Origin: Hysterangium stoloniferum
Lineage: Eukaryota > Basidiomycota > Agaricomycetes > Hysterangiales > Hysterangiaceae
NCBI GenBank assembly: GCA_015178975.1
Contig: WHVD01000007.1
Coordinates: 1,116,001 to 1,180,000 of the forward strand
Reading direction: 5' to 3'
DNA: 64,000 nucleotides
Of this stretch, positions 10,131 to 64,000 are shown piece after piece (the stretch's first letter is position 1; the number at the start of each line of letters is the position of its first letter). The notes beneath the pieces are model-generated. The model did no database searches and had not been told where the DNA came from. It saw only the letters and a program-made list of their open reading frames with translations. Both the position numbers and the translations under genes were made by a program.

Positions 10131-11293
10131 CACCTTGTAATGACTCAGAAGGTCTGAGGGATGGAAATGAAGCGAAAGAAGGACCAAGGACACAGGATGT
10201 TTTGAAGAGGATGAAGCATCTGTAAATTGGTATTTGATCCGGACGGTTCACTCATAAGTTTTCAATTTGACCAACTCATTGATTTTCTTTAAACACTTTC
10301 TTTAAACAGAACATTTTGAGTACCTGCCGGCATTCGTGTTCCGAGTACCACAAACAAGGACCAGTGAGACATGTTGTCGCCATTTTCCGGGAGAATACGT
10401 TCCTCGGCGTCCAAACTCCTTTTGCCATCTCTCACCGACCATTCCACGATTCTTGGCGATTAAGAGTTCTCGGCATTATATCTCTAAAGGTTTTAGGCCT
10501 CATCAGGTCGGATTCAAGTGACCATTCTCAAGGTATATACGGGAGGAATAAGGTTCATAGCGTGAATGTTTTCTACCACTGTCGCTCTGGTGCTGGTTTT
10601 GTGGCATCATATCTCATGCCGCAGACTTTTTTCCACACTTCGCCCCTCGGCGCGTTATGATTTCCGACGGGCTTTTCCCTTGTTAGCTGACGCAAATTAC
10701 TTCACTCAGAAGGCCCGTGTAATAATAGTAGCGTATAATGAGTTATGACTGAATATAGAATACATGCACAATTTGTTCATAAAACCCTGACGGACTCCCC
10801 ACAAACAGGTATAGTCACGATCGAGGCGAGTTAGCCTAAGTACAGAATTATCCGAAAAAGAATTGAACACGAAGCGCATATTCCTGTTAGACGTGGAAAG
10901 CGCCGGAGGCTGTACCTGAGAAGCACTGTCGTGGATAGCATCCACTGCATTTACATATTCAATCAATCGAGATGTCACTTCTTAACTAACGTAAAAGCTG
11001 AATTGGGCTCACCAGACTATTCGTATCCGCCATATGTGCTCTCTTCCCTAGACGATCTGTTGAAGAGTAAGGAATTAGTGTATACCATAGCGATTTAACT
11101 TGAGAGTATTCTGGAGGTAGACTGAACCAAGGAGGTCGAGGGGCTTCAAGTTATGTAAAATGAAGGGATGAAACGCTGGGTATCCTATATACATCACCGC
11201 CACAATGCTATAGCTGGACATTAATTCCCCTTATAACCGCACCTTAAAAGCGCAGCATCCCCTTCTGGTGTCACAACAACCTGTTACCCACCA
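10131..11293 (+). other. Unit 5' flank of copy A
   Basis: Noncoding unit sequence. It holds the caccaaggacacagg-like segment near 10170, the gtatttgatccggacggttcac segment, and the promoter-proximal block ending in the CAGCATCCCCTTCTGG element at about 11253. No independent gene is seen. Confidence 0.5.
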
Positions 11294-12727
11294 ATGTCAA
11301 CGTCAAACGAGACGACTCTGAGCAGAAACAATATCATACCGGCTGAAACCTTCCTGCAAGAGGTTGAGTGGGTACAACCCTTGGTTTTCCCGGCTGTATT
11401 GAGTTTGGAACGACAGAAAATAAATTACAGGAGAATGAGGGAAATATCCCGGATGAAGTTTCGGGATTGATGTAGCTGTCTCGAACATCGGCACTGTTTA
11501 TGTTACCGAGTAACCAATGACGACCAGCGCATACCATTGTCCGAAGAAGACGTCGAAGACCGTGTGGAGGAATGGATGTGTAAACGAAATGCCATTTTTA
11601 GGTACACTGTTCACAGCCAGAATTTGTTCAGTCCCAAAGAGAGAGAAATTGCCACGAACCACCGAATAACATCAAGAGACGAGGGAGATCCACCAACGCC
11701 ACATGCATACTCAGTCCATCTCGTACGCATGACATGGCCTGGGGAGTCGTCTCTCATCGCCGGATAGCTCATCTTCCAGTGTGGAAATTAGCCCTAGGTA
11801 TTCCTGTAGAGTCGGTTTGGAAAGGGTTGGGATGAAAGTGCTTTACAGCCCAAAGAAAGCTTCGCTAATGACAAAGTTGATGATATACAAACGAATGTCC
11901 TGTGGACCATGGGAAGGCCAGAACGTCGTTGAGAAGTTTCTACTCAGGTCTGTCACGCCGCCACGACTGGGAATAATAGTTCTAGAGAGCATTGATCTAA
12001 TGAGGCAGGGATAACCCAGCGTCAATTTGTGAATACACGCACAATCACGTTTTTATAGACCCACGTACTCGCCCCGAATTCGATAACAGGCGTCAGTGGT
12101 ATTAAGGGGGTTCTGGAATTCGAGTGATATACAGTGAACAAACCAAGGTCAGCTTATGACATATATGGCTTGGGCGTTCAATTGGTGTCCCGGCGCTCGA
12201 TGGTCAGATAGAGATCAGCCATCAACTGCAATTACGACATTGCTTGATAACATTAGAATCAAATCACCGCTACACACCAGGTTGGATAAAGGTTTATCGT
12301 ACAAATCGTTGGGAATTTGTCATGTAATACATCCTTTCCTCGTTGACGAACTTGTGTATATCGTGAGAAACATCTGCCATGTGCGTCAGCTGTCTGGGGA
12401 GGAGCGAGGGACTAATCGAGGTCGCTCTGAAGCTGATAACTTTATCTTCTAACATCTAATCTGCATGTACCACAGTGCGCAGTTTCAATATCATCGCCTT
12501 CTTGGTCGTCTTCCACATTGTGTCGCAATGTGTGGGTTAATCAATGATCAATCCCTCGGTGTCGACTTTGACAGATTAAACCTTATGGTGCATTTTTCCT
12601 TTGCCCTCATCGCTACACCTTCTACTGATGTGACGGTAACATCTAATTCGAACATATCAGTGTTGGAGGAACATGCATGGTTGGCCTGCAGAGGGCCTTG
12701 CACCAGTCATTCGGCACAATATATAAT
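11294..12727 (+). pseudogene. Array family gene copy A, broken
   Basis: Copy of the unrecognised array family. Exon 1 starts MSTSNETTLS at 11294 but has an in-frame TGA at 11468, where other copies have CGA (Arg). The first intron donor is changed (GTGCGT to ATGTGT at about 11570). Exon 2 (about 11630-12010) has a small insertion near 11755 that shifts frame. Exon 3 (about 12070-12400) is joined directly to exon 5 at gaggagcgag, so exon 4 and its introns are deleted at a short shared sequence. Exon 5 runs to about 12727. Sequence details such as the exon 2 end group it with copies D and J. Confidence 0.75.
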
Positions 12728-14437
12728 CATTTCTTTTGGATCACGCAGGCACATCTCATCCAAACTAGAAGGAGGAATGGTATTATTTCTCTTCAATTAA
12801 CTCGGTTTGTAACAGGATCTGTCTAACCTACATAACCTGAGCCAATTTAAGAGCGCATACAGTCACATTTTACCATCACCCCATGCTCTCAGCTTCTCCT
12901 TGATGACATGCATATGTAGAATAATATTGACGAGGGTTAGTTTAACTCCCGATTTATTAACAACAATTATTTCAAATAGAACACCGCTGGAAAGTCTCAA
13001 AGACAGCCACGCCACTGTTATGCACATGTGACTTGGTTAGCATAGCACCAAGCAAGCCATTGAGGAAAAACACAGGACATCGGCCATAATCATTCCAATC
13101 CACCTACCAATCACCGGGCTTTGTCATCAAAGAATCATTCGGCTCTGCTCTCTTCCCCGTCACGCCATCCCATCCTCCTAAAAGCCGCCATTGGGGTTAA
13201 ATATCATGAAGCCCCAATACATGACTTCCTGGAGAGGTTCCCTATTGGGCAGACACCGCGATCAAATGTCATCTGGCCTGGTGCAGGAAATTCACCACAT
13301 GTGTCGAGATGCCAGAGGAGGCTGCCATAATGACAATTCATGATCTGTCGTGACATCTTCGTGTCATGCAAATGAGTCCCGGATAAATAATGTGAGCCTG
13401 GGGTGAATTGCTCTACTCATAAGGACTGGGTAATAAAAAGACTGGAATGGATTAATTAGGACTGAATATAGACTACATGCATGATTTATTAATGAAAATA
13501 TGATAGACTCGCCACATACAGGTATATTGTAATCCTGGCCACATTACCACACAAACAGAGCTGCAGCGCTGACCCCTGGCGACCCCTGGCCGCCCTTCCA
13601 CGATCCCCTTGATAGAGTTCCAACCTGCCAACCCGCTCTTGCAATCGATCATGGGCCCACTCGGATCAACGTCCCGTTTCTATTCTTCTCGTCTTGACGA
13701 CTACAATTCCAGATCCCGCATTCCTGATTCATTTATGTTGTCATGATAACTCGATGGTTCTGCAGTATATATAATAGCTACATGATACATCTGTGGAAGA
13801 AGGAAGTACCACAATCAACGCGATAATTTTGTCCTGTCCGCTACCGACTGAGTGAGGCTGATATCAACAGTCTTACACACATTCTCTTTCGACGCCAATT
13901 AGGCTAAGTAAAGAATTATTAAAATGGGATGCTCGTTGGAATTATGAAAGGAGTGAATACGAAGCGGATGTTTCCGTGAGATATAGCCCGAGTGGACAGC
14001 CCCCGAGACTATACCTGAGAAGCACTGTCATGGATAGCATCCACTGCATTTATATATTCTATCAATGGAGAATGTCACTTCTCAACTAACGTAGAAGCTG
14101 AATTGCCCAAAAATATAGCACTCAAGAAGTCGTAAGTTGCCGCATTATGCGGTGAAGGCTCATCAAACTATTCGTGGGTGTCTTGTGTGCGCTCTGCCGT
14201 AGACGATCTGTTGAAGAGTAATAAATTATACTATGACGTAGTGAGTGAACTTGAGAGTATCCTGGAGCGTTTGTACATGAAGGAGGTTGAGCGGCTTCAA
14301 TCTGTGTAACAGGAAGGGAAGAAACGCTGGGTATGCTTCATAAACCACCGCCACAATGCTATACCTTGGAATTAATGTAACTGCAACTTAAAAGCGCAGC
14401 ATCCCCTTCCGGTATCACAATCATCTGCTACCCACCA
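12728..14437 (+). other. 3' flank of copy A and 5' flank of copy B
   Basis: Noncoding unit sequence. 12728-13100 matches the conserved 3' flank (ctttgcatgctc..cttctccttgatg region). From about 13460 the promoter-side flank of copy B begins (gactgaatatagactacatgc), including the CAGCATCCCCTTCCGG element at about 14397. The piece between (13100-13440) shows no clear match. Confidence 0.5.
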
Positions 14438-16374
14438 TTGTCAACTTCAAACGAAACGACTCTGAGCAGCGACGATGTCGAACAGGCTGACAGCCTCCTA
14501 CAAGAGGCTGAGTGGCTACACCCCTTGGTCTCCCCAGCTGCAATGAGCTCAGTAGAACGGGAGGAGCTAGTTGATGCGGTGATAAGGGAAACATTCCGGG
14601 TAAGGCTTCGAGCCCGATGGAGCTGTATGGAACATGGGCACGGTGTGTGTTATCGAGTTGCCGAAGATGACCAGAAGACGTTGAAGTTTGGGCTGAGGAA
14701 TTGTTGCGCAAAATGGGATAGCCTTTACGGATACTGTTGAAAAACTGGACGCTTTCAGTGGCTAGGGGAGACAAATTGTCATGATCCACCGATTCTTATT
14801 AAAATGCGAGGTAGATCCACCATCGCCACATCCAACCTCAGTCCATACTACAGTCATGACGTGGACTGGGGAGCGGTCTCACTGTATCAGAGCTCACCGA
14901 CATCTTCAAGTATTAAAATTGAGCCGGGGTATTACTGTGGAGTCGAGTTGGGAAGCGTTGGGAAGAATGTGCTTTACAGTGCAAAGACAGCTGCACTGAT
15001 GGAAAGTTGATGATATACAAGCGAATGGTGTATGGATACGACAAAGCCTTTGGCAAGTTCTTCCGCAAGCATCTCACTCTGCCAAGACTCGGAATCATAA
15101 TTCAAGAGACCATTGACTTAATGAGGTGGGCATATTTCAGCGCCAATAATTGCATAGAATCAAAATACTCACGTCTTTCTAGACCCACTTACCCGCGTCG
15201 AATTCGAAAACAGGCGGGGGTGGTCTTAGATAGTCTCGGCGATTCAACTGAGGTGAAGTGGAGCAACGGATGTCACACTGAGAAGCTTATGGTGTGTTTG
15301 AGTGCGGCCTTCTACCGGTGTACCGGCGCTCGATGGTCAAATAAAGATCAGCCACCAACTGAAATTACACCATCGCTTTACAATGCTGTAATCAAATCAG
15401 CGCTACACACCAACTTGGATGAGGTGGCGTCGGCATTCATTCTCCAAATCGCCCGATATTTGTCATCCTTTTGTAAACCTCCTACCTCCCCGCCGACCTT
15501 GGGTATATCGTGGAACAAACTTGCCACGTGGGTCAACTGTCTGTAGAGGAGCTCACTGCAATTAGAGGTTGCATTGAATTGTGGTTTAAACCGTCCGTCC
15601 CGACATCACATCATTTCATCCTGCCCACCAAAACTACAACAGACAAAATTACCCCCACCCACTTTCCTTGTATGAGTGTCCTATAAAGGTACTAGTGTCT
15701 TGCATCCAAGAAGATGATTGGTTTCGAGATATTGCTGGAGATGTATTGAAGGTTATAGTGGATGACACAAACCACCATATAGCGTCCTTGACTCTTATGA
15801 TGGATGAGTACACAGCGTATTCATTGTGGGATAGTATCTTGGCTCTGAACACCTTCTTCGACGACATCACGCTTCCCACGCATCATATCAAACAACTGAA
15901 TGTGGTCCCTTCGCTTATTGAGCCCCTCCTACAGTATGTTGAGAGTGTTTTACCTTTCAACGTCGTGTAATATTTGCCCTTGAAAATATCATACCAGTCT
16001 GATTCTGACAGACCCAAGTCCAAATTCGAACCTCCTCTGGTCAGGAGAAGAACTAATCGAGGTCACTCTGAAGCTGATCGCTGTATCTTCCGACATCGAA
16101 TCCGCATGTAGCCACAGTGCGCAACATGTATATAATTCCCATTCTCACCCGTCTTCTCCCACATTGTGACGCAATGCGTGGCTCACTCGACTATCAATAC
16201 CTCGGTTTTCGGCTTGAAGCATTAACCATCGCGGCTCAGTCCTTCCTTTGTGTCATTACCACACCTTTCACCAGCGTGTGCGTAACATCTAATTAAAACT
16301 CCAGGTCAGTGTTGGAGGACTATGGCTGGCCTGCCGATGCTCTTGCTCCATCCATTCCATCCGATATATCATAA
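14438..16374 (+). pseudogene. Array family gene copy B, broken
   Basis: All five exons are recognisable, but the start codon is TTG instead of ATG (14438-14440). Exon 1 lacks about 20 bp near 14672, which shifts frame, and the first donor GT is lost (TTGCGC at about 14706). Exon 2 begins at 14759 after ctttcag and has a 1-bp deletion at about 15002 (atggaaag for atggcaaag). Exons 3 (from about 15180), 4 (about 15700-15927) and 5 (about 16003-16374) follow with the family's usual motifs (RPTYPRRIRKQAG, WFRDIAGDVLKVIVDDTN, NQLNV-like VVPSLIEPLLQ). It is a recent-looking pseudogene. Confidence 0.8.
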
Positions 16375-19762: not shown

Positions 19763-20077
19763 CTAAAAAGAGGGACGGTGATCAGATGACAAATATTGTG
19801 TGATCTGTGTGATAAATGTCGATGCAACCTCATCCATGTTGGTGTGCAGTGTTGATTTGATTACAGCATTGTAAAGTGATGACATAATTGCAGTTGATGG
19901 CCAATGTCTATCTGACCATTGAGTGCCAGGACACCAATGAAGGCAAAACCCAAATTTGTGATGAGCTTGGCAGTGTCTCCTTTGCTCCTCTGCCATAAAT
20001 AACTTGAATCCTGGAGCCCCTCTAAGACCATTGACACCTGTTTTCAAATTGAGGGGGTTAGGTGGGTCTAGAAAGAC
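19763..20077 (-). pseudogene. Array family exon 3 fragment
   Basis: Reverse-strand fragment with the end of intron 2 (ctttctag, about 20070) and most of exon 3 (GFCLHWCPGTQWSDRHWPST, then SLYNAVIKSTLHTNMDEVAS). It is cut off on both sides: nothing of exons 1, 2, 4 or 5 is found next to it. The exon is still open, but as an isolated fragment it is not expected to encode a protein. Confidence 0.75.
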
Positions 20078-22167: not shown

Positions 22168-24094
22168 TTAGGATATATCCTGTGGAGTAGATGGACCAAG
22201 CGCATCGGCAGGCCAACCATGATACTCTAACACGGATGCGCAGTTCGAATTGGAGGTTATCGACACGCCGGTAAATGGTGTGGCGATGACGGAAAGGAGT
22301 GAATGACACATAAGGTGTAATCTCTCAAAGCGGATAAGGGTGGATTGATCGTTGATGGAGCCACGCATTTTGTAACAATGTGGGAGGAGACGATCGAGAA
22401 TGGCGATTATGTTGAGGTTGCGCACTGTGGTACACGCGTATTCGATGTCGGAAGATCCAGCTATCAGCTTCAGAGTGACTTCAAGTAGTGTTTGGCCTGA
22501 CCAGGGGAGCCAAACATTTGCACGGTTGTGTGTCAGAATCAGACTGGTAGGATATTGGTCATGGATATAAGGTGATACTAGAAGGTAAAACATTGTCAAA
22601 ATACCTTAGGAGGGGTTCAATGAGCGAAGAAATCACATTGAACGGGTTGATGTAATCCATGCGAAGTATGCTGTCGTCGAAGAATTTTTCCAGGGCACTG
22701 ATATCATAGCACAGTGAATACAATGTGTCCTCGTCGATATGAAGAATCAAGGACGCTATATGAAGGTTGGTGTCGTCCACTAGAACCTTCCATACATCTC
22801 CAGGAACACCTCGGAACCAGGCATCTTCGTCCATGCAACACACCAGAGGCTTTATAGGAGATCCAAACAAGTCTATGTGAGAAATTTTGTCTGTTGTGGT
22901 TTTGGTGGGCCAGATGAAATGATGTGATGTCGCGACGCACGGTTGTGTCCAGAATTCAATGCAACGTCTAATCGCAGTGCGCTCCTCTACAGACAGTTGA
23001 CGCACGTGGCAAGCTTGCACGATATACCCAAGCTCGGCGAGGAGGTAGGTACGTGAATGGCATGGGTATGATAAATATGCGGAGATTTGTAGAATGAATA
23101 CCAACGTAACCTCATTCACATTGGTGTATAGCGGTGATTCAATGACAGCATTGTAAAGCGAAGACGTAATTGCAGTTGATGGCCGATCTCCGTCTCCCCA
23201 TCGAGCACCGGGACACCAGTAGAAGGCCCAACTCAAATATGCTATAAGATTGGAAGTGTGTCTACCGTTCATCCGGTGTATAAAGCTTGAATCCCAGAAC
23301 CCCTGTAAGACCACCAACGCCTGTTCTCGAATTCGAGGCGGGTAAGTGGGTCTAGAAAGATGAGTATTTTGAGTGTATTCAATGATTGGCGTTGAAGTAT
23401 CCCCACCTCATTAAGTCGATGGTCTCTTGAATTACTATTCCGATTCTTCCCAGAGTCAGATGCTTTCTAATTAACTTGTTAAAGGCCCTATCATCTCCAT
23501 GAATCATTCGCTTATATATCATCAACTTTGCGATCAGTGCAGCTGTCTTTGCCTTGTGAAGCACATTCCTCCCAACCCTTTCCAAACCGACTCCACAGTA
23601 ATACCCGGGACCAATTTCCAGACTTAGAGATGAGCTGTCCGGCGATGAGATGACTCCCCAGTCTATGACACGCCTACGATATGGACTGTGTTTGGATGTG
23701 GCGTTGGTGGAGCTCTCTCGAATCTGAATATTATTTGGTGGGCCAAGGCAATTTCTCTCTCCCTGGCACTGAAAACATCCGAGTGAACAATCTCCTTGAA
23801 AGTGATGTTTCGTTTACGCACCCATTCCTCCACACCAACTTCCACGTCTTCTTTCGACAGTTCTATGTGCTGGTCGTCATCATGTGCTCGGCAACATAAA
23901 CAGTGCCTATGTTCGAGACAGCTACATCTCTGTCGAAGCTTCATTCGGGATCTTTCCCTCATTCCAATCTCATCGATCTCCTGTCGTTCCGTCCTCAATA
24001 CAGCCGGGGAAACCAAGGGTTGTAGCCAGTCAATATCTTGGAGGAGGGATATGACATCCTGCCCACTCGGAGCTATCTCGCTCGACGTCGACAT
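22168..24094 (-). CDS. Array family gene copy C, open if intron 3 retained
   Basis: Member of the unrecognised five-exon family. Exons: 24094-23822 (MSTSSEIAPSGQDV), 23768-23407, 23351-22941, 22890-22605 and 22543-22168. Introns 1, 2 and 4 have GT donors (GTGCGT, GTGGGG, GTATTT) and AG acceptors of 53-61 bp. Intron 3 (22940-22891, GTGCGT...CAG, 50 bp) is different: exon 4 is 5 bp shorter than in the intact copies, so splicing it out shifts frame. Keeping it gives one continuous frame from 23351 to 22605, and the whole gene then encodes 585 aa with no stop. Key stretches are CSCLEHRHCLCC, GYYCGVGLERVGRNVLHKAK and IEPLLR. Function unknown; no signal peptide or membrane helix is evident. Confidence 0.55.
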
Positions 24095-40941: not shown

Positions 40942-40957
40942 GGTTATGGGCCCCGGC
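40942..40957 (+). other. Primer binding site, half initiator tRNA type
   Basis: ggttatgggccccggc follows LTR-B directly. Its complement gccggggcccataacc resembles the anticodon stem-loop of an initiator tRNA-Met (CAT anticodon followed by AA), the half-tRNA priming known for Drosophila copia and yeast Ty5. The same sequence follows the LTR of the copia element at 50895-55806. Confidence 0.75.
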
Positions 40958-44355: not shown

Positions 44356-44485
44356 GCTTCTTCCTCTTCATTTCCCACCCTCAAGAATTTTCGGCCAACC
44401 AATCAACTACACTTGTCATCAAAGATATTGCAGTGGCGGTCACAGAGTATCAGTCATATACAGGTGTGTCGTCCGGCATGTTATC

Positions 44486-44880: not shown

Positions 44881-44883
44881 ACG

Positions 44884-51182: not shown

Positions 51183-54100
51183 CTCCTCCTCGAGTTTTGA
51201 AGAAGTAAGTCCTAAACGTTCTGTGTGATGGTAGTGAATGGGTGAGGAGAGTGGTTTTGTCAATATATCCGCAGTCATTTCTTTAGTCGATCTATAGATA
51301 AGTTGGATAGTGCCGTTTTCAATCAAATGACGAATGAAGTGATATTTCACTTCAATGTGTTTCATCCTTCTCAAAGCGCGTTGGTTTTGTGCGAATGCAA
51401 TAGTACCTTGATTATCTTCACAAATTGCCGTCGGTTCTTCATATATTATATTAAGTTCTTCGAGGAAATGACGTGTCCACATAATTTCGCAAGCCACTTC
51501 CGAAAGCGCAATATACTCCGCTTCTGTGGATGAAAGGGCGACTGTTGACTGCTTCCTCGAAGACCAAGATACCGTTCCTGAACCTAAAAAAATCGCATAT
51601 CCACCTGTTGAACGTCTGTCCTCTTGATCTCCTGCGAAATCGGCATCCGAATATCCATGCAGACAAAGAGCTTGTCCTCCCAATCGAAGCTCGAAATTGC
51701 GAGTCGTATACAAATATTGTAGGATGCGTTTAGCTAAGTCCCAATGCATTCTCGCGGGATTTGACGAATATTGAGATAGTTTGTTAACAGAATATGCGAT
51801 ATCGGGACGCGATACTGTAGCTGCGAACATCAAACTTCCGATAAGTTCGCGATAGGGCAATTTTTCGATTTCATTTCGTTCTTCCTCAGTATCTGGACGC
51901 ATAATAGAGGCGAAATCGATTCCAAGTGATATGGGAGTTCGAATTGGCTTGGAATTTTGTACGTTAAATTTCTTCGCTATATTTTTGATATATTCCCTCT
52001 GCAATATAAATGCTGATTTCAATTCAGCATCTCGACGGATACTCGTTCCCAATATCCAATGGGCCTCGCCTTCGCTCGAAATTCCAAATCGTTCACGGAA
52101 TGCCTTTTCGAGATCTAGAAGCCATCTTTCATCACCTACGGCAGTTGCATCATCCACCCAAAATGCAACTACGGCCCAACTTCCGTCGTCCCATATTTTG
52201 AAAAATGTAGGGCTGTCAAAATCGGAACAGAACCAGGTGAGTTCTTTAACCATAAAATTATACAGCGTTTTTCTCCACTCATTGCCTCCCTGTTTCGTCC
52301 CATAAAGCGCTTTCAATAACGGTAATGCTAGATTCTCCTTTCCGGGTTTTTCAAACCCCTCCGGTTGTTGAACCCAAACCTTTTCTTTCATCATCCCATG
52401 TAAGTACACCGATTTAACATCGAATTGACGTATAGCTGAATTTGTTATTGCTCCTAGCGCCAGTAATATTCAGAACGTCTCCCACTTCATGACTGGTGTG
52501 TATGTTTCATTAAAATGCAATCCAGGAATTTGACTAAATCCCTTTACGATGATTCGTACTTTCCTTTTTATTAGTTCACCAATCTTGTACGATCCACGAC
52601 ACACCGTTCCGGTTCTTAAAACACATGTTCCTGGGGGTGGTTCTTCAGGTGCGCCGAATACGTTATGTTCTATCATATTCTTCCATTCCGCTTGTCTAGC
52701 TTCTTCCCAAGCTACTCCTTCGTCTCCTGGCATATTCAATGCCTCCTCAATCATCAGATTGCCCAAAGTCGAGAAAATAACCGGTACGTTAGAATCTTCC
52801 AATTCTTTTTCTTCGACTGACAATAAACTTCGAATTCCTTCCCGCACTTTACCAGATCTTGTTATTCCACGAGGATAGTCTGGTACGTTTGACACTAATT
52901 GGGACTCTTCTATCATTGTAGTCTTCTCTTTTTCTTCGATAGGTCAAGGATGAGGCGGGATACGGATCATGAGTCTAGGCTGAGGCTCTTTTTCGGGTTG
53001 CATTGGAGGTACGCTATTTATATTCCTGAATTGACCTTCATCTCCATAAGGCACGGGCGATGGTAACGTCATCGCATCTTCATGGAATATTGCATTGCGT
53101 ACTTTTTCGATCCTCCTCGTTCCAGGGAACCACACTAAATATCCAGATGAATACGGTTCATATCCAACCATATAACCCATCTTCGAACGTGAGTCCCACT
53201 TCTGGCGTCTTTGCTTAGGAACTGCCACGCTAACTGGACTTCCAAAGATCCGCAAATGTGCTAAATCTGGCTTCTCTCCCGTTATCCTTTCAATAGGTGT
53301 ATGTCCATTGTTTGCACGTGATGGACTACGATTCCTCAAATATGCCATCGTTTTGACTGCGATAGACCACAAGAATTTGGGGAGTTTTGATGCGTATAGT
53401 AAGTTTCGTGCACCTTCAGCTATTTTCGTCGCATATAACATTGTTCTTGCCCCTTCCGTAATAGTGCGTATACCTCTTTCTGCAACACCATTTTGCTGCG
53501 GCATATATGGCACCGAGGTAAATAAAGCTATACATTTCGATAACAGATAGCTTCTAAATTCCAAATTTATTAGCTCGGTTCCGTTATCTGTCATAACTCC
53601 TTGGACCCTCGTATTGAATAACGTTTCCAGTTGAGTTATGTATTCCTTTATTTTGCGCACCGCTTCCAGCTTGCTTGCTAATGTTTCAACCCATACAGCA
53701 TGGGAGAAGTCATCAACAACGATAATAAAATAACGCTTTTTATCAAAACTTATCATTTCCATAGGTCCGGCAAGGTCCATATGGAGTAATTCTCCCAACT
53801 TTGTTGCTCTGGTACGTCCAGTTTTGAATGGATTTCTGCACTGTTTACCTTCGATACATGCAATGCAGTCAGCTTCGAAGCCTTCAATTTCTTCAATCTC
53901 CATTCCGGTCGCAAAATGTCGTGCAAGATTCCTAATAGCGTTCGTGCTCAAATGCCCCAAGCACTGATGCCATTTCATAATATCACATGTCGAATTCACG
54001 GAGAATATCATAGGTACATCTTCCAACCTATTTTGTAATTCATCGTCTGATAGATTCGTATATTCGCATACTGGTGGTGACACGGAAATCGTATCCAGCT

Positions 54101-55451
54101 GGAAAGGGTATACATTACCCCTCTCATTCGCCTCAATGCGTGTACGTCCCGATGAATCGACTATTGTAGAACCTGTTTTACTCAACATAACACGATATCC
54201 ATCCTTGAAAAACTGCGTGGGATTAAGGAGTCGCACCTTAACTTCGGGAGTCCATTCGACGTTGGGAATTTCACCTACAAACTCTGGACCATGTTCCGTA
54301 ACCTTGAAACGCAATGTTCCAATACCTCTGGCATAAATATAAGCACCATTCGCCGTTTGGATTTTCTTCGGATTTTTATATGCCATAAAATCGTGTAAGT
54401 CATACATACTCGGCACATAATGTCCTGATGCCGCGGAATCCAGGAAATATTTATGCGGTACACTCTCCTTACTCAAGAAAAATGTGGATTCGACGGCGGT
54501 AAACATTCCCCTACTGGCAACTGAGGGAGATGGCGTATTTCCAGATGAGTCGTTACTTCTACTTTGGTTCTTCCAATTTTCTGATCGCTGAGCATATCGC
54601 TGTTTTCTCTTAGGACAATCACTTGCCCAATGCGACAAATCCCCGCATTCAAAACAACCAGATTGTGGAGTACTCCTCCTGATCTGTGTTCCTCGCGGAA
54701 TGGCGGCATGACCACGACCCCTATTACGATACACTCCTCGCTGTGTACTAATTCCCCTCTGGGGGCGAAACGTGGAACCTTCACCCCTCTGGGCACGAAA
54801 TGCAGAACCTTCGCCATAGCCTGGACGTATTTCTTTTCGAATCTCAACTTGACGTAGTTTATTGACTACTTCCTCCACAGTATCAACGTCATAATCGATT
54901 GTCGTTGACATTATATCGAAATCTTCGGGCAGCGTACTCATGAATAGGCTGAGGTAGTCAGCATTCGTGATGGCATGACCAGCCTCCAACAATTTCAGTC
55001 TTATGGAGTCCATTTGGGATTTATATTCGACAATTCCTGTCCCATCATAACGCATACGAATGAGTTCGGAAAGTAACGTCGCACGACTATTGGCCAATCG
55101 CGTTCCGTAAGTCGTCTTCAAAGTTTCCCATGCATTGACTGGATTACTGTCCACCATTATAGCCACCCTGGGCTCGTCTTCAACGCGGAGCATTATCTCG
55201 CTGTAGGCCCTCTTCTTTCGAAGTTCCCAGGCCTCTTCGATCTCAAGTTCCTCCATCATCGGAACCTTCACATCTATGTGGATAGGATCCACCAGTTCCC
55301 CAGTTACGACCTTCCATTGATTCAAAGACTCCAGCATGGTTTTCATACTCGCACTCCAAGTAAAATAATTGTCTTTGCGTAACTTCGGAAAAACTTGGTA
55401 AGCACTCCCAGTGCTTATTTCATAATTCTTAATTTTGTCCAGGGTGATCAT
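51177..55451 (-). pseudogene. Copia polyprotein with two nonsense codons
   Basis: One frame of 1425 codons from ATG 55451 (MITLDKIKNYEISTG) to a TAG at 51179-51177 lying inside the 3' LTR. Order: gag, zinc knuckle CFECGDLSHWASDC (about residue 266), protease LDSAASGHYV (about 337), integrase zinc site KWHQCLGHL to CIACIEGKQC, catalytic Asp in HMDLAGPM and VMTDNGTEL and Glu in GVAERGIRT, then RT (GTCVLRTGTVCRGSYKI, FWVDDATAVGD) and RNase H (DADFAGDQEDRRSTGG; STEAEYIALSE) and ADILTKPL. The frame is cut by TGA at 52946-52944 and TGA at 52472-52470; the second replaces an Arg in the RT motif ETF-R-ILLALGA. Both fit CGA to TGA. A 15-residue tandem duplication (EGARTMLYATKIA / EGARNLLYASKLP) lies in the integrase near 53395-53465. 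Confidence 0.93.
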
Positions 55452-55501
55452 TTCAGCGATTGATTAGGATGGCTTGTTAATTATTTGCTATCAATATAAA
55501 G

Positions 55502-55518
55502 AGCCGGGGCCCATAACC
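55502..55518 (-). other. Primer binding site, half initiator tRNA type
   Basis: On the element strand ggttatgggccccggct directly follows the 5' LTR, identical to the site after LTR-B at 40942. It would pair with the anticodon arm of an initiator tRNA-Met, implying priming from a cleaved tRNA half. Confidence 0.75.
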
Positions 55519-55806
55519 TAAAGACGTTTAAGTATCTCAGCGAATAAATGTTCGCTCTATTATACAATACCTAAAGACGTTTAAGTACTAAATACACAAT
55601 AAGTTTTGTTTCGTGATAAGGCTATAAACGTATCACTTACTCTCAGCGAATAAACGTTCGCTGAGAGATTCCCTAACTATACTACACGTATATAAGAGTA
55701 CATTCGAGAGGAGATTGAACATATGACGCATTGCGTCTTTTCGAGACATTTTGTCTCACCTTTTTCATACGCGCATTTACTTCTACAATACTCGTTATAC
55801 CTAATA
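55519..55806 (-). repeat. Copia 5' LTR (TA...TA)
   Basis: 5' LTR of the minus-strand element; same length and termini as 50895-51182. Immediately followed on the element strand by the primer binding site. Confidence 0.93.
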
Positions 55807-55811
55807 GTGCT

Positions 55812-56935
55812 CCACAGGATACACACCGTTTAATCCCTTCTTTGTAACCAACTTGAAGTCCCACTTATCCTTCTTGAATAATTCAGCCAGAATATTCCCA
55901 AGTTACCTTCCCATCTTTACACATATTCCTCCCACTTCGTCAGATCATCTCCCGCAGAAAACACACATGGCAGCTGAGAATAAATTGACGGGCCGTCACC
56001 GCGCATTGCGCTACCTTCTGAGTTCTTGAGCGCTAGATTTCAGGGCAATCCAGCTTTCCCGCCAGAAGTGACATCTCCACGGATAGAATATGTCAGTGCG
56101 GTGGATGCTATCCATGGCATGGCAGTGCTTATTAGGTACAGCCCCAGGTGCTTTCGACTCCGGCTATATCTAACGGAAATCTGCGCTTCGTGTTCAATTC
56201 TTTCATAATGGCAACGAGAAATCCATTACAAGTTTGTGGCGACTCTGTCAGGTTTTTATCAACACATTGTCCGGGTAATAAATATTCAGTGACTATTACT
56301 TACACGCTAGTCTTATTATTAACCTGACCTTCTCAGTGAACTAATTCGCCCCAGGATGACCTTATATATAAATAATTTGTCTATTTGGCTCGACAATGTC
56401 AAGGCAGATGAAACATTGTGAACCACCATAGCTTGACCTCTTGGAGACGGAGCTCTCCGGGTTTTTAAAGATTCACCATACTCTATTCCTTTACGTGCCC
56501 TTTTACTGCCACCTTGTCCGCCCCTTCGAAGCCGGTCCCTTCATTGTCCCTGGTGACGTCACAAAGGTTGTTGTAGTAATCTTTATTTCCTACCACTATA
56601 GTTATTTCCTATCATATCCGGGGGTGATATGCCAGTTGACCCATTCACCTTGACTTGTTTTCATGATTCTTGTGTTCAGACTGAATTAGTGCTGTGAATC
56701 TGTATCAACGTCTAAGCTCACATCCGTTGGTCCGTGCTCGCTAGAACCATCTTTGCCCTCCCTTGCAAACAGTATACTTGATGGGAGGGCCTGCAAGGAT
56801 CATCGCTATTTTCTCAGAATTTCCATCTCAAAGCTATGTCATGCTCTCCGCAGCAGCATTTTGATTTCACTATCCCTACACGCTCTGCACACGCAATGAT
56901 TAGAGCTTGATCTGTGCGTTCCTTTCGGCCTTCGA
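55812..56935. other. Displaced 5' flank of copy I
   Basis: Reverse-orientation promoter and far-upstream segment that belonged to copy I before the copia element separated them (cacaggatacacacc just right of the target duplication, tattcagtgactattacttac near 56285). It breaks into fragment K at about 56935. No gene. Confidence 0.6.
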
Positions 56936-57583
56936 AATATTGCTGGTGATGTATTGAAAGTTGTAATGGACGACATAACCCTAGATATAGCATCCTTGAC
57001 ACTTCACATCGATGAGAACACGTCACATTCACTTTGGGGCGATATATTTTCCCTAGAAACCTTCTTCGATGACAGCACACTCCGCATGGATCATATAAAC
57101 CAGCTGAATGTGGTTTCCTCACTTGATGAGCCCCTCCTAAGGTATGTTGAGACTTTTTTCCTTTCCATCATCATCTGATTCCCGCCCCATCAAAATATCC
57201 TGCCAGTCTGATTCTGACACGCATGTGTCCAAATTCGTGGTTCCTGTGGTTATGTAAACGACTAATTGAGGTCACTCTGAAGCCAATAGCTGCGTCTTAC
57301 GACATCAATTCCGCATGTACCACAGTGTGCAAGCTCAATATCATCCCCATTCTCGCCCGCCCGTCTTCTTCCACTTTGTGACGCAATGCGCGGCTCAATC
57401 ACCGATCAAAACCTCGGTGCTTCCTTTGAACGAGTAACTGTCACGGCTTATTCCTTCCTTTGTGTCATCGCCACACCTTTCACCGGTCCGTCCGTACCAT
57501 CCGATCCAACATCCATATTAGTGTTGGAGGACCATGACTAGCGTGCTCATGCCCTTGTTCCATCCATTCCGCACGCATAATGT
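56936..57583 (+). pseudogene. Array family 3' fragment (K)
   Basis: Begins inside exon 4 (RNIAGDVLKVVMDDITLDIA) and keeps its end (NQLNVVSSLDEPLLR, before a GTATGT donor at about 57141), intron 4 and exon 5. Exon 5 has a stop near 57240 (tatgtaaacg) and another near its end. Exons 1-3 are missing. Confidence 0.72.
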
Positions 57584-59630
57584 CTCTTGGATAGCACTGA
57601 TACACTATCCGAACCAGGAGGAAGGATAGTATTATTACTCTTTCCTTCACTCGCCCTGTGGCGATATTTCTCATTTATGTAAAGCTACGTACAGTGCATA
57701 TGGTCACTTTTGACTGCCTTTGTGTCCCTGGAAGCCTCTCGTTGATGCTATACGCACATTTATATCACGCTCGGAAGTTTCACAGATAGCAGCGTATCAG
57801 TTAGTTGGGATAGCATGAAGCCAGTCACTGAATAGTAGTAAACAACACCCGCAACTCACTAATCCATGCCGACGGTTATCTCGATCAGATTCACCTACTC
57901 TTCAAAATCTATGTTCAATCACCTGATTGGCTATCATGTGGCACAACCTCTGGAATGCAAGGAAGACCCTTTAGAACGTACAGCGACTGCGTTGGGCGTA
58001 TTCTATTAAGTATTTCCCTTCAGTCGAAACCTCCACTCGATGCTGAAGCCCCTCGCTCCCATGGGATCAGATTTGAGGACAAAGACAAGGCGAATATTGC
58101 AAAAAAGGTCAACCAGCGTCCAAAGGCACTTGTGAGAGCACTATAAGGTATAACTGATGCGTAGCGATACAGCAGACGTGCGAGGAAGCCAGAGGCCATG
58201 ACCACTTGATAGCCAACGGGTGTAAATTTGGTATAGTAACCCTACCGAATGACACACCGCGGCTTGAAGGAGGAAAATGAAGAGGAAGAAGCCCCAAGGA
58301 GACAGGATGTCTTGAAGAAGACGCAGCATCAGTAAATTGGTATTTGATTCGGGCCGCTCACAGAAGGAAGGCCCCCGTAATCTCGAATGCGCGCCTGCAC
58401 ATGGTGTAGCGTCTGGAGCATCCCAGATAGCCGTTCTTCCTCCGAGCGCCTGAAACCATTGTAGTGATGAGTCTTCAATTCGGACAAGTCTTTTCTTTTA
58501 TTTAAACGGAACCCTTTTGAGCACCTGGCTGGATTGGTGCTGCTTTTACCACAAACAGGCAACTGAATGAAACATGATGTCGCCATTATCGAGGTGAATA
58601 CGGCTTTCAGCGTCCGAGCACGTTTTGCCATCTCTCACCCACCTTTGTACGATTCCTGGCAATTCAGAATTCTGTTAGTATGTATCTAAGGATCGTTGGC
58701 CTCATCACGTGGGTTTACAATGACTATACTCCAGGTTAGACCACCAGCCATTCTTGAATTGACAAAGATATATGTACAAAATGCCGGTCAGGCACGTCAA
58801 GTGAGTACCCAGCTGTTAACTTCTGAACTTGCATATAATAATCAAGTTAATTATGTACTAATACACATACATCAGAAAGTTTTAAAGCATTAAAATATGT
58901 CCGCTTTACAAAATATATTAACAAAATAGGTGATAGAAACATGAAAATACCACGATAAGTCACACGGGCAGGATATTACATATTCTGTTCTCGTCATGAA
59001 CCTTGCAGGTCCAGGACGGGAAATGAGGAGCAAAACCATGATACCATTCAATCATGAGGGGTTCCCCATTACTCCGCTCACAAGGACCGGGTAATACTAA
59101 TTCTGGCGTGTACTTAATTATGACTGAAATATAGATCACATGCACAATCTGTTAATGAAATCCTGACGGACTCGCCACAAACATATTTACTTTCTATGGC
59201 AATTAGACCAAGTAAAGAATTATTAAAATGGGATGCTCGTTGGAATTCTGAAAGAATTGAACACGAAGTGGATGTTTCCGCTAAATATAGCCGGAGTGGT
59301 GGGGCTGTACCTGAGAAGCGCTGTCATGGATAGCATCCACTGCATTTACATATGCTATCAATTGACATGTCACTTCTCAACTAACGTAAGAGATCAATTC
59401 CCAAACCTCTAGCGCTCGAGGAGTCGGAAGTTGCCACAATATGCGGTGAAGGTTTATCGAACTATTCATAACTGCCACATCTGCTCTGCGCCGTAGACAA
59501 TCAGTTGAAGACCAAGGAATTGGTGTATACCATAGTGAGAGAACTTGAGATAATCCTGGAGCATGTGTGAATGAAGGAGGTTAAGGCTTGAGGTTGTGTA
59601 AAAGGAAGGGATGAATAGCTGGGTATCCTG
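57584..59630 (+). other. 3' flank of fragment K and 5' flank of copy G
   Basis: 57584-58750 is the unit 3' flank in plus orientation (ccatgccgacggttatctcg, gatgctgaagcccctcgctcc, gaagaggaagaagcccc). 58750-59090 holds the ttctgaacttgcatataataat segment. 59110-59630 is the promoter-side flank of copy G. Small ORFs on either strand (e.g. 58329-58631 minus) are unit noise and not called. Confidence 0.5.
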
Positions 59631-59712
59631 TATAAAGCACCGCCACAATGCGATACCTTGAAATTTATTCCCATGATAACTGTAACTTAAAATCGCAGCA
59701 TCCCCTTCCGGT
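59631..59712 (+). promoter_or_regulatory. Candidate core promoter of copy G
   Basis: TATAAAG at 59631-59637 lies 105 bases upstream of the ATG. The nearby block cgcagcatccccttccggt (59694-59712) is conserved before the start of most copies. Inferred from position and conservation. Confidence 0.5.
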
Positions 59713-59735
59713 ACACAACCACCTTCTACCCACCA

Positions 59736-61714
59736 ATGTCGACTTCAAACGAGAGGACTCTGAGCAGCAACGATGTCGTATGGGCTGAAAGCCTCCTACA
59801 AGAAGTTCAGTGGCTACAACCCTTGGTCTCCCCAGCTGCATTGAGCGCAGAAGAACGGGAAGAGAGATTTGATGCGGTGAGAAGGGAAAGATTCCGGGTA
59901 AAGCTTCGAGACCGATGGAACTGTATCGAAGATGGGCATGGTGTGTGTTATCGAGGTCCCGAAGACGACGAGCATATACCACTGTCTGAAGAAGATGTAG
60001 AAGTTTGGGTCGAGGAATGGGTGCGCAAAATACAGTAGCCTTTCATGTACACTGTTGACAACTGGACGCTTTCAGTACCTAGGAGAAGCACATTGCCATG
60101 ACCCACCGACTATCATTAAAACGCGAAGTAGATCCACCAACACGACATCAAACATGAACCCATATTGCAGTCATCATGAGATCGACTGGGGAGTGGTTTC
60201 ACTGGCTGATAGCTCGTCTTCAAGTGTTGATATTAGCCCCGGGTATTACCTAGGTGTTGGAATGGACAGGATTGGGATGGGCGTGCTTTACAGCGCACAG
60301 AGAGCTTTGCTGATGGCAAAGTTGATGATATACGAGGGAATAGCCCGTGGGTATGGAAGCAACAAGGCCTTTAACAAGTGTGTACAGAAGTATCTCACTC
60401 TTCCAAGACTGGGAATGGTAATTCAAGAGACCATCGATTTGATGAAGTAGGGATACAACCGCGTCAACCATTGATTGCTCAACATACTCACGTCTTTCTA
60501 GCCCCACCTATCCCCTTCGAATTAGACAACAGGCGTGGGTGGTCTTACGGGAGTGGACGTTCTTACACCATATATGGTATTCAAGTGGTATACAGCGGAG
60601 AAACGGAGTTCACACTGCCAAGCTTATGACATATTTGGCTTCGGCCTTCCTCTGCTGTCCCGACGCTCGATGGTCAGATGTAGATCGGCGATCAACTTCA
60701 ATTACGTCATCGCTTTACAATGCTGTCATCAGATCACCACTACACACCAACGTGGATGAGGCTGCGTCCACATTCATTGTACAAATCGCCGAATATCATT
60801 CATCATCTTTTCCATCTCCAAATCTCCTCACCAGTCGCCTTTGGTATATCGTCGAATACATCTCCCGCGTGCGTCAACTGTCTGCAGTGGAGCTCGCTGC
60901 GATCAGAGGTTGCATTGAATTCTGGTTAAAACCGTGCGTCGCGACATCACATTATTGCATCCTGCCCACCAACACCAGAACAGACAAAATTACTCACACC
61001 GAATTTCCTTGTTTGAATCTCCTATAAGGATTCTCGTGTGTTGCATCCACCAAGATTCCTGGTTTCGAAATATTGCTGGAGATGCATTGAAGCTTATTTT
61101 AGACGACGCAAGCCTCCATATAGCAACATTGACACTTCATATCGATGAGAACATGTCATATTTTCTTTTTGGCCTTATCTGCGACCTAAAAACCTTCTTC
61201 GACGACAGCACTCTTCGCACGGATCATATCAACCAGCTGAATGTGGTTTCTTCGCTCATTGAACCCCTCCTAAGGTATGTTGAAAATGTTTGACCGTCAA
61301 GCATAATCTCATATCGGCCCATTCTAATATCCTACCAGTCTGATTACGACACGCACGAGTGAAACATGTTTTCTCCTCTTTTCAGGCAGGAAAATAATCG
61401 AGGTTACTCTGAAGCTGATAGCTGCATCTCCCGACATCGAAACCGCGTGTACCATAGTGCGCAGCCTCAATATGATCGACATTCTCGCTCGTGTTCTTCC
61501 ACATTGTGACTCAATTCATTTCTCATTCAACGATCAATACTTCGGTGGCCACGTTGAACAATTTTACCTCGCATCGTATTCCTTCCTTTGTGTCATCGCC
61601 ACACCTTTCACCGGTTTGTGCGTAACGTCTCATTCAAGCTCCCGATCCGTGTTGGAGAATACTGGTTGGTCTGCCGATGCTCTTGTTCCATCCATTACGC
61701 ACGTTATATCATAA
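59736..61714 (+). CDS. Array family gene copy G, intact, unknown function
   Basis: The clearest intact member, encoding 584 aa. Exons: 59736-60020, 60076-60446, 60502-60933, 60984-61274 and 61339-61714, total 1755 nt with no stop. Introns are 55, 55, 50 and 64 bp: donors GTGCGC, GTAGGG, GTGCGT and GTATGT; acceptors CAG, TAG, CAG and CAG; phases 0, 2, 2 and 2, identical to copies E and I. The ATG (MSTSNERTLSSNDVVWAESL) follows the conserved upstream block. Notable stretches: WNCIEDGHGVCY (first His of the candidate CxxHxHxxC cluster is Asp here), DWGVVSLADSSSSSVDISPG, SLYNAVIRSPLHTNVDEAAS, NQLNVVSSLIEPLLR and SLNMIDILARVLPHCDSIHF. The C-terminal 250 residues are Leu/Ile-rich and could be an all-helical repeat fold. 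No signal peptide, membrane helix or known catalytic motif is seen. Downstream lies the usual unit 3' flank. Confidence 0.78.
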
Positions 61715-63384
61715 TTTCTCCTTGGTAACACTGACACATTATCCACCCAGGAGGAAGGATACTACTATTACTCTTCAGTTAACTCCCCTTTGGCAATATT
61801 TCTAATTTATGTAAAGCTACATAGTTCGAGGGCATTTAAGAGCGCATGTAGTCACTTTTACTTTGTGTGCTTTGCAGTTTCTCATTGATTCTATGCATAC
61901 GTTGCATATATTGGTGGGCGTTAGTGGTGGCTAGAATCACATCCAATTTATCAACGAGAATCACTTCAAATAGAATACGACTCGGAGCTTTCAAAGAATG
62001 CAGCGTATCAGTTAGTTGAGATAGCAGGAAGCAAGTCATTGAAGAGCAGCAACCACCACCCGTAACCCACTAATCCATGCTGACAGTTATCTCGGTCCGA
62101 TTCACCTAATATTTAAAATCTATGTTTAATCTTCTGATTGGCTACCATGAGGCACAAAATCTCGAATAAAAGGAAGGGCCTTTGAAAGGGTGTTGGGCCG
62201 ATTCAATTAAGTATTTCTCTCCATTCGAAACCTTGACCCGATGATGGAGCGCCTCGCTCCCATGGGATCCGACTTGAGAAAAACGACCATCGCGAATATT
62301 GCAAGGAAGGTAAAACGAGCACCACAAAGCACTTTTGAGACCATATAGGTATAACTGATACTTAGCGATACAGGAGAAGTTCGAGGAAGCCAGGTTCCAT
62401 GACCACTTGATGGCAAACCGGTCTAAATTAGGTATAACAAAGCGTTCCGGGTGGCACACCTGGTAATGACCGATATTCTGTGACAACAACTTGAATATAT
62501 TTGATCACAAGTGTAGTTGATTTTTTGTTGGACAATTCTTGAGGGAGAAAAATGAACAGGAAGAAGCACCAAGGACACGAGATGTCTTGAAGAAGACAAA
62601 GCATCAGTCAATTGGTATTTTATCCGGGGGCTCACGGAGAGAAGTCCCCTTAATCTAGAATACGCGCCTGGACATGGTCCAGCATGTGGAACAGCCTGGA
62701 GCAAGATAGCCGTTCTTCCTCCCAGCGCGTCAAACCATTGGAGTGATGAGTCTTCAATTGGATCAAGTCTTTTCTTATATTTCAACGGAACCTCTTTGAG
62801 CACCTGGCTGCCTTTGGACTCCTATTACCACAAACAATCAATAGAGTGAGACATCTTGTCTGGGTGAACACGTTCCTCGGCTTCCGACCATCTTTTGCCA
62901 TATTTCACCGACCATTCACGATTTCTGGGGATTCTGAGTTCTCGTCATTATGTATCTAAGCATCGTAGGTCATAGGGTCAGTCACAAGCGACTATAACCC
63001 AATTTAGACCACCAGCCGCTCTTTAAATGGCAATGATATAGACAACAATCCGGGTCTGGTACGTCCAATGAGATACCCAGCTTTCAACTTATGAACTTGC
63101 ATATGTTAATCTCTGTAATTATGTACTAATACACACACACCAGCATGCTTCAAAACATTAAAGTATATCCGCTGTACACAATATATTAACAAAACTAGGG
63201 CGATCAGAAAATGAAAATACAACGATAAGTGACACGGGTAAGATATTACATATACCTTTTTTATAATGAACCTTGAAGGTCCAGGAAGGGAAACGAGGAG
63301 CATAACCATGACAACATTCAACCATATCGGGGTTTCCGTCAAAATCCAGGTTGCTGGGAAAAGACAAAGGACTCCAACTAAAGC
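61715..63384 (+). other. 3' flank of copy G
   Basis: The best-preserved unit 3' flank. It includes a reverse ORF at 61836-62039 (ILFEVILVDKLDVILATTNAH), the gatgatggagcgcctcgctcc segment near 62241, the caccaaggacacgag segment near 62565, promoter-side-like segments near 62830-62980, and the acttgcatatgttaat segment near 63095. No separate gene is called. Confidence 0.55.
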
Positions 63385-63905
63385 TGAGGGATAAAAGTAC
63401 TTTACATCGCAAAGAAATATTCGCTGATGACAAAATTGATGATATACAACGGAATGGCGCGTGGACGATGGGAAGGCCAAAATCTCGTTGATAGGTTTCG
63501 GCTCAGCTATCTTACTCCGCTCAGGCTGGGAATAGTAATTCAAGGGAGCATTGATTGATTGAGGTAGGGATACACCAGCATGAATGAACAAATACATTCA
63601 AAATACTCACGTCCTTTTAGACCCACCTATCCCCGTCGAATTCGAAAACAGGCGGGGATGGTCTTAGAAGGGGTTCTGGGTTTCAAATGGTGGAGGGCAG
63701 AGGAACTGACGAAGCACTGCCAAGCTTCTGGAAAACTTTGGTTCGGCCTTCTCCTCGTCTCCCGGATCTCGATGGGACGATGGAGATCGGCCATCAACCG
63801 CAATTACGTCTTCGCTGTACAATGCTGTAATACAATCAGCGCTACCAACGTGGATGAGGTTGCGTCGACATTTATTCTTCAAATCGCCGGATATTTCTCA
63901 TCTCA
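63385..63905 (+). pseudogene. Array family fragment L (exons 2-3)
   Basis: Starts within exon 2 (agggataaaagtactttacatc) and has a frameshifted exon 2 end, intron 2 to ttttag at about 63620, and exon 3 (RPTYPRRIRKQAGMVLEGVL, then a shift) to about 63905, where similarity stops. Broken by several indels; exons 4-5 are absent in the window. Confidence 0.7.
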
Positions 63906-64000
63906 ATGCATTGCGGTTATCGTGCATCAGGAAAGTAAAAGATCAGTAAGTATGCCGTCTATATTGGCTAGAGCCATCTAGGAGAGCTAGCTAGACTCGG

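Follow-up and report, generated by a model that had tools for sequence, protein, structure and literature searches.

Hysterangium stoloniferum, an ectomycorrhizal false truffle (a root-partner fungus), carries very long arrays of a previously unnamed five-exon gene family, known from this species alone among the sequences searched, whose several hundred copies and fragments share a common gene model. Among the 20 copies of one recent burst, reading frames have been maintained, exon 1 is conserved and amino acids have diversified at defined positions of what is predicted to be a helical superhelix, faster than under neutral drift and in the manner of proteins that recognize non-self or other organisms. 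We hypothesize, giving the idea about an even chance, that this segmentally duplicated family is a recognition repertoire diversified by exchange and selection.

Copies in the window and across the genome

Exon-by-exon tblastn of a 64,000-nucleotide stretch of the genome (herein referred to as the window) identified 16 complete or partial copies of a single five-exon gene at 11.3–63.9 kb, seven on the forward and nine on the reverse strand; the exon matches, lying between 11,294 and 63,850, were grouped into units by our own judgement. Four of these units can be read without a stop through four GT-AG introns (555–584 aa), and the other 12 are fragments or broken. The units and neighboring features are as follows (unless stated otherwise, the full-length and broken copies were delineated by tblastn and splicing, and the partial copies by tblastn).

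59736–61714, +: best intact copy, 584 aa; exons 59736–60020, 60076–60446, 60502–60933, 60984–61274 and 61339–61714; open, with GT-AG at all four introns
48857–50793, −: second-subfamily copy with an open five-exon reading of 555–560 aa, stopping about 20 aa before its relatives
32104–34045, −: full-length copy, open five-exon reading, 571 aa
22171–24094, −: full-length copy, open five-exon reading, 560 aa, open only with intron-3 sites moved from the usual ones
14438–16371, +: five-exon copy, broken; a stop-free path through four introns is absent
35984–37758, −: five-exon copy, broken
27430–29319, −: five-exon copy, broken
11294–12686, +: copy without exon 4
19787–19954, −: exon 3 fragment
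26054–26780, −: fragment of exons 4–5
30598–31254, −: fragment of exons 4–5
44485–44884, −: fragment of exons 3–4, adjoining an inverted fragment
44884–46002, +: fragment of exons 3–5
46550–47313, +: fragment of exons 2–3
56930–57571, +: fragment of exons 4–5, located where the recently amplified block breaks off on the left
63388–63850, +: fragment of exons 2–3
38.9–44.3 kb and 50.9–55.8 kb: copia elements, distinct from the gene family
56931–64000, +: part of a recently amplified block, with a related block on contig C335

Self-similarity at E ≤ 1e-10 covers 41.9 kb of the window (about 40 kb without the LTR pairs and the short repeats within the first 9 kb), and the gene flanks are repeated as well. 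The original prediction of about 16 copies and fragments with their noncoding flanks, in both orientations and with several copies open across four introns, is thus borne out; its picture of the array must be amended on two points: copia elements interrupt it, and copies extend far past the window. The five-exon, four-intron form is upheld for the copy at 59736–61714, and deposited H. stoloniferum proteins have the same form.

A 25-base exon-2 tag (up to three mismatches) occurs seven times in the window versus 0.00 times in 100 shuffles, and 304 times genome-wide versus 0 for the reversed pattern used as a control, counts that exclude chance. Exon tags recur about 230–300 times in the genome, and family copies are spread across about 1.27 Mb of the window's 1.61-Mb contig and are also present on other contigs. 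DNA that aligns with the window (transposable elements counted in) makes up 88% of a 46.3-kb stretch elsewhere on C522, a dense array, and the block at 56931–64000 is matched almost in full at 87–93% at 26 or more other places on C522, C8 and C106 (minimum 1,096 bases of a 1,154-base query), among the 40 candidates scored out of 1167. Telomere repeats gave 17 matches in the genome and none on C522.

Recent blocks end at differing places. In the blocks examined, no constant ends flanked by target duplications or bearing terminal repeats were found. Three apparent shared ends were rejected. Window position 56931, where 11 of the 20 burst loci begin, is a break of the query copy; at L012:195, seven other copies keep matching one another beyond (about 90–99%); and the base at which three of the four dispersed copies (L023, L025 and L026) begin matching is a break in L025, past which L023 and L026 match for about 170 bases. 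The suggestion that a large mobile unit carries the genes between constant ends is therefore not supported by the blocks examined: block ends vary, and the shared ones are breaks in one copy. The birth-and-death evolution proposed alongside it fares better, as intact copies lie beside broken ones (9 of 20 are intact in one burst). The refuting case named in advance, copies across the genome with no intact member, does not apply, since the genome-wide copies include intact ones.

Gene model and predicted protein

Intron 3 of the copy at 59736–61714 (60934–60983) was set by comparison with deposited proteins, and the resulting 584-aa protein shares 54–60% identity with five full-length deposited H. 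stoloniferum proteins (P0001–P0005). Protein searches returned 18 relatives, all from H. stoloniferum, in agreement with the predicted lineage-specific family, although these searches require shared exact words and score about 8000 candidates each, so that distant relatives could escape. Pfam scans of the window protein, the 11 members of alignment A2, P0008, P0011 and P0013–P0018 gave nothing better than E 0.017, nor any match above the cut-off where the cut-off was shown; Pfam gives no family, in line with the earlier remark that the protein has no recognizable domain. Specifically, the scan of family proteins found no NACHT or NB-ARC domain and no transposase, integrase, Rep/helicase or reverse transcriptase, the transposable elements of the window being separate. 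Plasmids searched for the family gave no match. A viral origin was rejected, as none of 33 pattern matches among viral contigs was confirmed as a relative and BFVD gave no structure match at E ≤ 0.001. Our literature search found no published mention of the family, which also goes unmentioned in the available passages of the H. stoloniferum genome report (PMC7550596).

Exon 1 (59736–60020, +) encodes an N-terminal module with the pattern RWxC...GHxxCYR...HIPLS, which by eye occurs several times in the longer relatives P0011 and P0013–P0018; a similar Cys-His motif may be present in other basidiomycete proteins. Exons 3–5 are predicted to encode an ARM/HEAT-like helical superhelix. In the structural model of P0003, residues ~153–537 are helical with block pLDDT mostly 70–92; the confident model is limited to these residues, the N-terminal module lying outside it, and diverged members had to be included in the alignment for a usable model (10 close sequences gave pLDDT 32). 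The best structure matches are ARM/HEAT and other helical-repeat proteins, at fold-class strength only and assigning no repeat family, and the likeness to ARM/HEAT proteins such as importins and beta-catenin is one of predicted fold class, with stacked helices over about 385 residues. Judged by hydropathy, the protein is apparently non-secreted: the largest 10-residue value in the first 30 residues is 0.22–0.76 in four proteins. The largest 19-residue value is 1.69–1.74 in three single-module proteins and 2.22 in the long P0016; windows that slightly exceed 1.6 number one in the window protein, two in P0002 and three in P0003, against seven in P0016. Unlike MiSSPs (small secreted symbiosis effectors), the protein has 584 aa and low N-terminal hydropathy, and a signal peptide is not indicated.

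Selection and exchange among copies

Reading frames have been maintained in the burst, of whose 20 copies 11 are not intact. Indels are sevenfold rarer in exons (0.54/kb, 12 of 19 being multiples of three) than in flanks (3.69/kb, 6 of 85), and 11 stop codons were observed versus 61.7 expected from the noncoding substitution spectrum. Exon 1 has pN/pS 0.46 (0.34–0.60; the intervals for these exons come from resampling of copies, with no tree used), exon 3 has 1.74 (1.34–2.42), exons 3–5 have 1.33 (1.20–1.45) and all exons 1.08 (0.98–1.21), or 1.02 with dense variant runs masked. The hypervariable sites of subfamily B (P0001–P0005) were chosen independently of the burst and hence provide a non-circular test; in the burst their pN/pS is 2.53 (1.84–3.40), versus 1.05 (0.88–1.18) at other exon 3–5 sites. 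The hypervariable segments (aa 235–252, 325–334, 418–429, 463–477 and 518–534; exons 3–5, 60502–61714, +) are variable in an independent subfamily too, and variability runs in parallel along the proteins of both subfamilies (r 0.60 after smoothing versus a largest circular-shift value of 0.24). In each subfamily it recurs with the period of a helix (matched by 0 of 5000 local shuffles in either); such periodicity is expected of any helical protein.

Nonsynonymous divergence in burst exons 3–5 is 0.057 versus 0.030 in noncoding DNA. Exon divergence exceeds flank divergence within A/T, C/G and CpG sites alike, so the exon excess is not one of base composition; synonymous divergence, too, is higher in exons (4.6% versus 3.0% noncoding), and part of the excess is therefore imported divergence. 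Codon positions 1, 2 and 3 evolve at about equal rates under a provisional 569-aa model (intron 3 to 61028), which alone would suggest neutrality.

Exchange between copies is suggested by the 48 of 52 dense variant runs that begin in exons, which account for 57% of the bases compared, and by four-gamete pairs, whose share in coding DNA is 27% at short distances and climbs to 50% at longer ones, while in noncoding DNA it is flat. Evidence for donors of such tracts is weak: only 5 of the 52 runs had a donor matching 80% or more of their length, and the sharing of derived transversions with diverged copies exceeds its control no more in coding (55%, control 45%) than in noncoding DNA (48%, control 29%).

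A second array (array 2; 14 copies on C388, C257, C28 and C63) counts against the diversifying-selection reading. The N-terminus is conserved here too (exon 1 pN/pS 0.54, 0.45–0.66), but pN/pS is nowhere clearly above 1: exon 3 has 1.07 (0.93–1.34), exons 3–5 have 0.90 (0.83–1.08), and the hypervariable sites have 0.92 versus 0.86 at other exon 3–5 sites. Divergence of exons 3–5 (7.8–11.1%) lies inside the intron and flank range (6.1–11.9%).

A candidate recognition repertoire and its alternatives

If the family is a recognition repertoire, the superhelix would bind variable partners, such as molecules of non-self fungi, parasites, symbionts or the host, and the N-terminal module may signal or recruit. 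Segmental duplication would generate copies, which would swap short coding tracts; new binding surfaces would be selected and copies would later decay. The variable residues are presumed to lie at the superhelix surface. Such action would be analogous to that of fungal NOD-like receptors (NLRs) with their hypervariable repeats, minus the nucleotide-binding domain. Fungal NLRs have a C-terminal superstructure domain with a few positions under diversifying selection, exchange between family members that feeds variation, and large repertoires per genome; the H. stoloniferum family may share these traits, its superhelix being predicted and its pN/pS at the hypervariable sites being 2.53 in the burst but 0.92 in array 2. 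Unlike NLRs, it showed no NACHT or NB-ARC domain and was found in one species only. The Podospora HET-D/HET-E family comprises NLRs with hypervariable WD/ANK/TPR/HEAT repeat domains (PMC1805685; PMC4986451) and has 10 members, versus the ~230–300 exon tags here, and up to 274 NLRs occur in one basidiomycete (PMC4986451).

One alternative, which we consider unlikely, is that most copies are decaying repeats reseeded by a few source genes of unrelated function, the variation reflecting relaxed constraint and the mixing of old copies. The prevalence of broken units in the window (12 of 16) and burst (11 of 20), the pN/pS of 0.90 (0.83–1.08) in exons 3–5 of array 2, the raised synonymous sites and the masked overall pN/pS of 1.02 all fit this account; however, relaxation cannot yield pN/pS 2.53 at sites picked in another subfamily, the nonsynonymous excess over noncoding divergence in exons 3–5, or the sevenfold deficit of exon indels.

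A bolder version of the repertoire, to which we assign a rather low probability, is a megabase diversity archive in which gene conversion in short tracts would keep rewriting a few expressed receptor genes, with hundreds of copies, both intact and broken, as donors, so that each mycelium or nucleus has its own recognition repertoire. The VSG archives of trypanosomes and MSG archives of Pneumocystis are large arrays of intact genes and pseudogenes with segmental exchange. The H. stoloniferum family resembles them in its large array, its intact genes beside pseudogenes and its segmental exchange, but its protein is apparently non-secreted and the organism is a plant symbiont. If true, the archive would be a fungal counterpart of antigen-receptor and surface-antigen archives, with an intracellular helical superhelix as its scaffold and no nucleotide-binding switch.

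It is less likely again that these genes are selfish spore killers (meiotic drivers) that kill spores without copies and diversify as poison/antidote pairs. The wtf spore killers have multiple membrane spans. By hydropathy only, such spans are not indicated here (peaks are low, 1.69–1.74 in three single-module proteins, with 2.22 in P0016); no poison/antidote pairing is seen, each gene fits a single ordinary five-exon model with no second product evident, and drive by every one of several hundred linked copies is hard to envisage. What favors the idea is the presence of fast-diverging copies within one species, as in the wtf family of Schizosaccharomyces pombe, which diverges rapidly, varies in number and sequence (PMC5478263) and has 25 members, versus 304 exon-2 tags in H. 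stoloniferum. Finally, an undescribed mobile unit that encodes or carries the gene is improbable: numerous copies with open frames in both orientations on many contigs, and the common start of L023, L025 and L026, would suit it, but the Pfam scan shows no transposase or other domain, ends differ between blocks, copies match on past the apparent shared ends (breaks of the query copy), and the predicted fold is a helical superhelix.

How ectomycorrhizal fungi distinguish partners, rivals and non-self is largely an open question. Gene annotation may miss functional families that resemble repeats, as 18 annotated members were found here versus hundreds of exon tags. Given its size, its detection in one species, its frames kept open and the focus of selection on particular positions of a predicted binding superhelix, the family offers a concrete candidate recognition repertoire beyond the NLR class.

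Family copies in the window and across the genome

Hysterangium stoloniferum (Hysterangiales) is described as ectomycorrhizal in the available part of PMC7550596, and its assembly comprises 111 Mb in 554 contigs, of which C522 spans 1.614 Mb and contains the window at positions 1,116,001–1,180,000. Exon-wise tblastn delineated 16 family units in the 64-kb window (7 on the plus and 9 on the minus strand), four of which retain an open five-exon reading with GT-AG introns. The reading at 48857–50793 is open but ends about 20 aa early, that at 22171–24094 is open only with shifted intron-3 sites, and the copy at 59736–61714 has a 584-aa product.

Genome-wide, sequence tags from exon 2, exon 3 and the start region gave 304, 227 and 276 matches, respectively (at most three mismatches), and their reversed controls gave 0. 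Of the 16 window units, 10 contain exon 2, and the exon-2 tag recovers 7; if these proportions hold elsewhere, extrapolation yields approximately 430 exon-2 copies and 700 units including fragments. Among the matches listed, the main family locations are C522 (14 kb to 1.28 Mb), C8, C106, C149 and C335, and a second set lies on C388, C257, C63, C28 and others. The family gene was not found in the samples of C522 at 0–6, 1400–1406 and 1606–1614 kb; the 1400-kb sample gave three matches, to other repeats, and that at 1606–1614 kb contains a gypsy-like element, read by eye.

This second large set (loci L023, L025, L026 and L034–L043 on C388, C257, C63 and C28) shares approximately 82–89% identity with L025, an intact gene on C388 with the same five exons and a 580-aa product, and its tag matches extend to C114, C367, C311 and others. 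Longer relatives among the deposited proteins (P0011, P0013–P0018) carry several N-terminal module repeats ahead of the helical part.

Mode of amplification and neighboring elements

Segments reaching 7 kb or more in length, in which a complete gene is accompanied by parts of others, occur repeatedly on C522, C8, C106 and C335 at approximately 87–95% identity, with end positions that vary between copies. About 630 kb from the window on C522, a 46.3-kb stretch is 88% covered by window-alignable DNA, transposable elements included. Two ends that seemed fixed, at window position 56931 and at position 195 of locus L012, are breaks in the query copy; past the latter, seven other loci match each other (approximately 90–99%). 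Dispersed copies on C388, C257, C28 and C162 have approximately 2.4 kb around the gene in common; the match starts at the same base in three of the four, but two of these three match each other for some 170 bases further. Segmental duplication with ectopic recombination fits this pattern better than fixed-end transposition.

A repeat of approximately 350 bases (L018, 2142–2492; L029, 1209–1557) is inserted in one family copy and occurs again at 1.40 Mb on C522 (88%); it is perhaps a small non-autonomous element. The window also contains the following elements.

Other elements in the window
365–5557, plus strand: Helitron; a single frame, broken by three stop codons, matches Helitron_like_N (E 1e-58) and PIF1 helicase (E 4e-73)
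7527–8591, minus strand: Tc1/mariner-like transposase; uninterrupted 354-aa frame with DDE_3 and Tc3 HTH
38863–44329: copia-type element with two identical 256-base repeats at its ends
50895–55813, minus strand: second copia-type element; 295-base repeats 99% alike, long gag-pol frames; adjoins a family copy

Low-complexity tandem repeats with periods of 15, 30, 60 and 72 bases occupy 576–1328, within the Helitron's first long frame. The copia-type element at 38863–44329 is recent, as its terminal repeats are identical; its gag-integrase frame (41537–44083, plus strand) and an RT-like frame read by eye (39048–39590, minus strand) lie on opposite strands, which suggests rearrangement or nesting.

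Selection and exchange among recent copies

The burst of recent amplification was sampled as 20 copies (the window copy and 19 of 20 fetched loci, picked as best matches to it) with 88.6–96.2% identity over the gene, 9 of which are intact genes. Exons carry 19 indels in 35.0 kb, 12 of them multiples of three in length, compared with 85 indels over 23.0 kb in the flanks, where 6 are multiples of three; 11 stop codons were observed against 61.7 expected. Divergence from the majority sequence is 3.2% in flanks, 2.4% in introns, 3.3% in exon 1, 4.6% in exon 2, 5.1% in exons 3 and 4, and 5.9% in exon 5.

With intervals obtained by resampling copies, ignoring the tree, burst pN/pS is 0.46 (0.34–0.60) in exon 1, 0.99 in exon 2, 1.74 (1.34–2.42) in exon 3, 1.07 in exon 4 and 1.22 (1.02–1.61) in exon 5, giving 1.33 (1.20–1.45) for exons 3–5 and 1.08 (0.98–1.21) for all exons. 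Masking dense variant runs, which takes out clustered selected sites too, gives an overall value of 1.02 and lowers exon 2–5 divergence to 3.6–4.3%. Variable segments picked within the burst gave 2.35, a circular estimate using the same copies for picking and testing; the test was therefore repeated with sites picked in subfamily B (deposited proteins P0001–P0005), giving 2.53 (1.84–3.40) at these 78 codons and 1.05 (0.88–1.18) at the remaining 288. Variability profiles agree between the two subfamilies (smoothed r 0.60; circular-shift maximum 0.24), and both show helical periodicity. In the predicted structure of P0003, variable positions lie near the starts of helices 313–329, 405–423, 457–476 and 513–534 and around 228–237 and 505–508, most intervening helices varying little; the variable positions would make up one face of the predicted superhelix.

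In array 2 (14 copies of the second set), exons 1 and 2 are conserved (pN/pS 0.54 and 0.64), with just two substitution stops; exon 3 gives 1.07 (0.93–1.34) and exons 3–5 give 0.90 (0.83–1.08). Its hypervariable sites (0.92, versus 0.86 elsewhere) change faster at synonymous and nonsynonymous positions alike, a pattern consistent with exchange in which no excess of amino-acid replacements is detectable. This result limits the claim of diversifying selection.

In the burst, dense variant runs start in exons in 48 of 52 cases. Donors were sought in a panel of 141 diverged segments, which covers a small part of the family; the best one explains on average 54% of a run versus 32% for random bases, matching at least 80% of the run in only 5 of 52. 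In coding sequence the share of four-gamete pairs grows with distance, from 27% below 60 bp to 50% from 1000 bp upward; noncoding sequence shows no such increase (30%, 29%). The share of derived transversions also present in the diverged panel is above control by less in coding (55% vs. 45%) than in noncoding sequence (48% vs. 29%), which counts against exon-biased exchange.

Resemblance to non-self recognition genes

No account of the family was found in the open-licence literature. There is good support for the family itself, for its arrays and for the pattern of selection in the burst. NLRs are defined by a nucleotide-binding domain, which this family does not have, and it is hence not classed among them. 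Its conserved N-terminus, diversifying superhelix, open frames and large reservoir with signs of exchange together liken it to fungal non-self recognition genes, in that its evolution resembles that of het-d/het-e (PMC1805685) and of fungal NLR repeat domains (PMC4986451), as far as the available parts of these sources describe them. We put the chance that these are recognition genes at about even.
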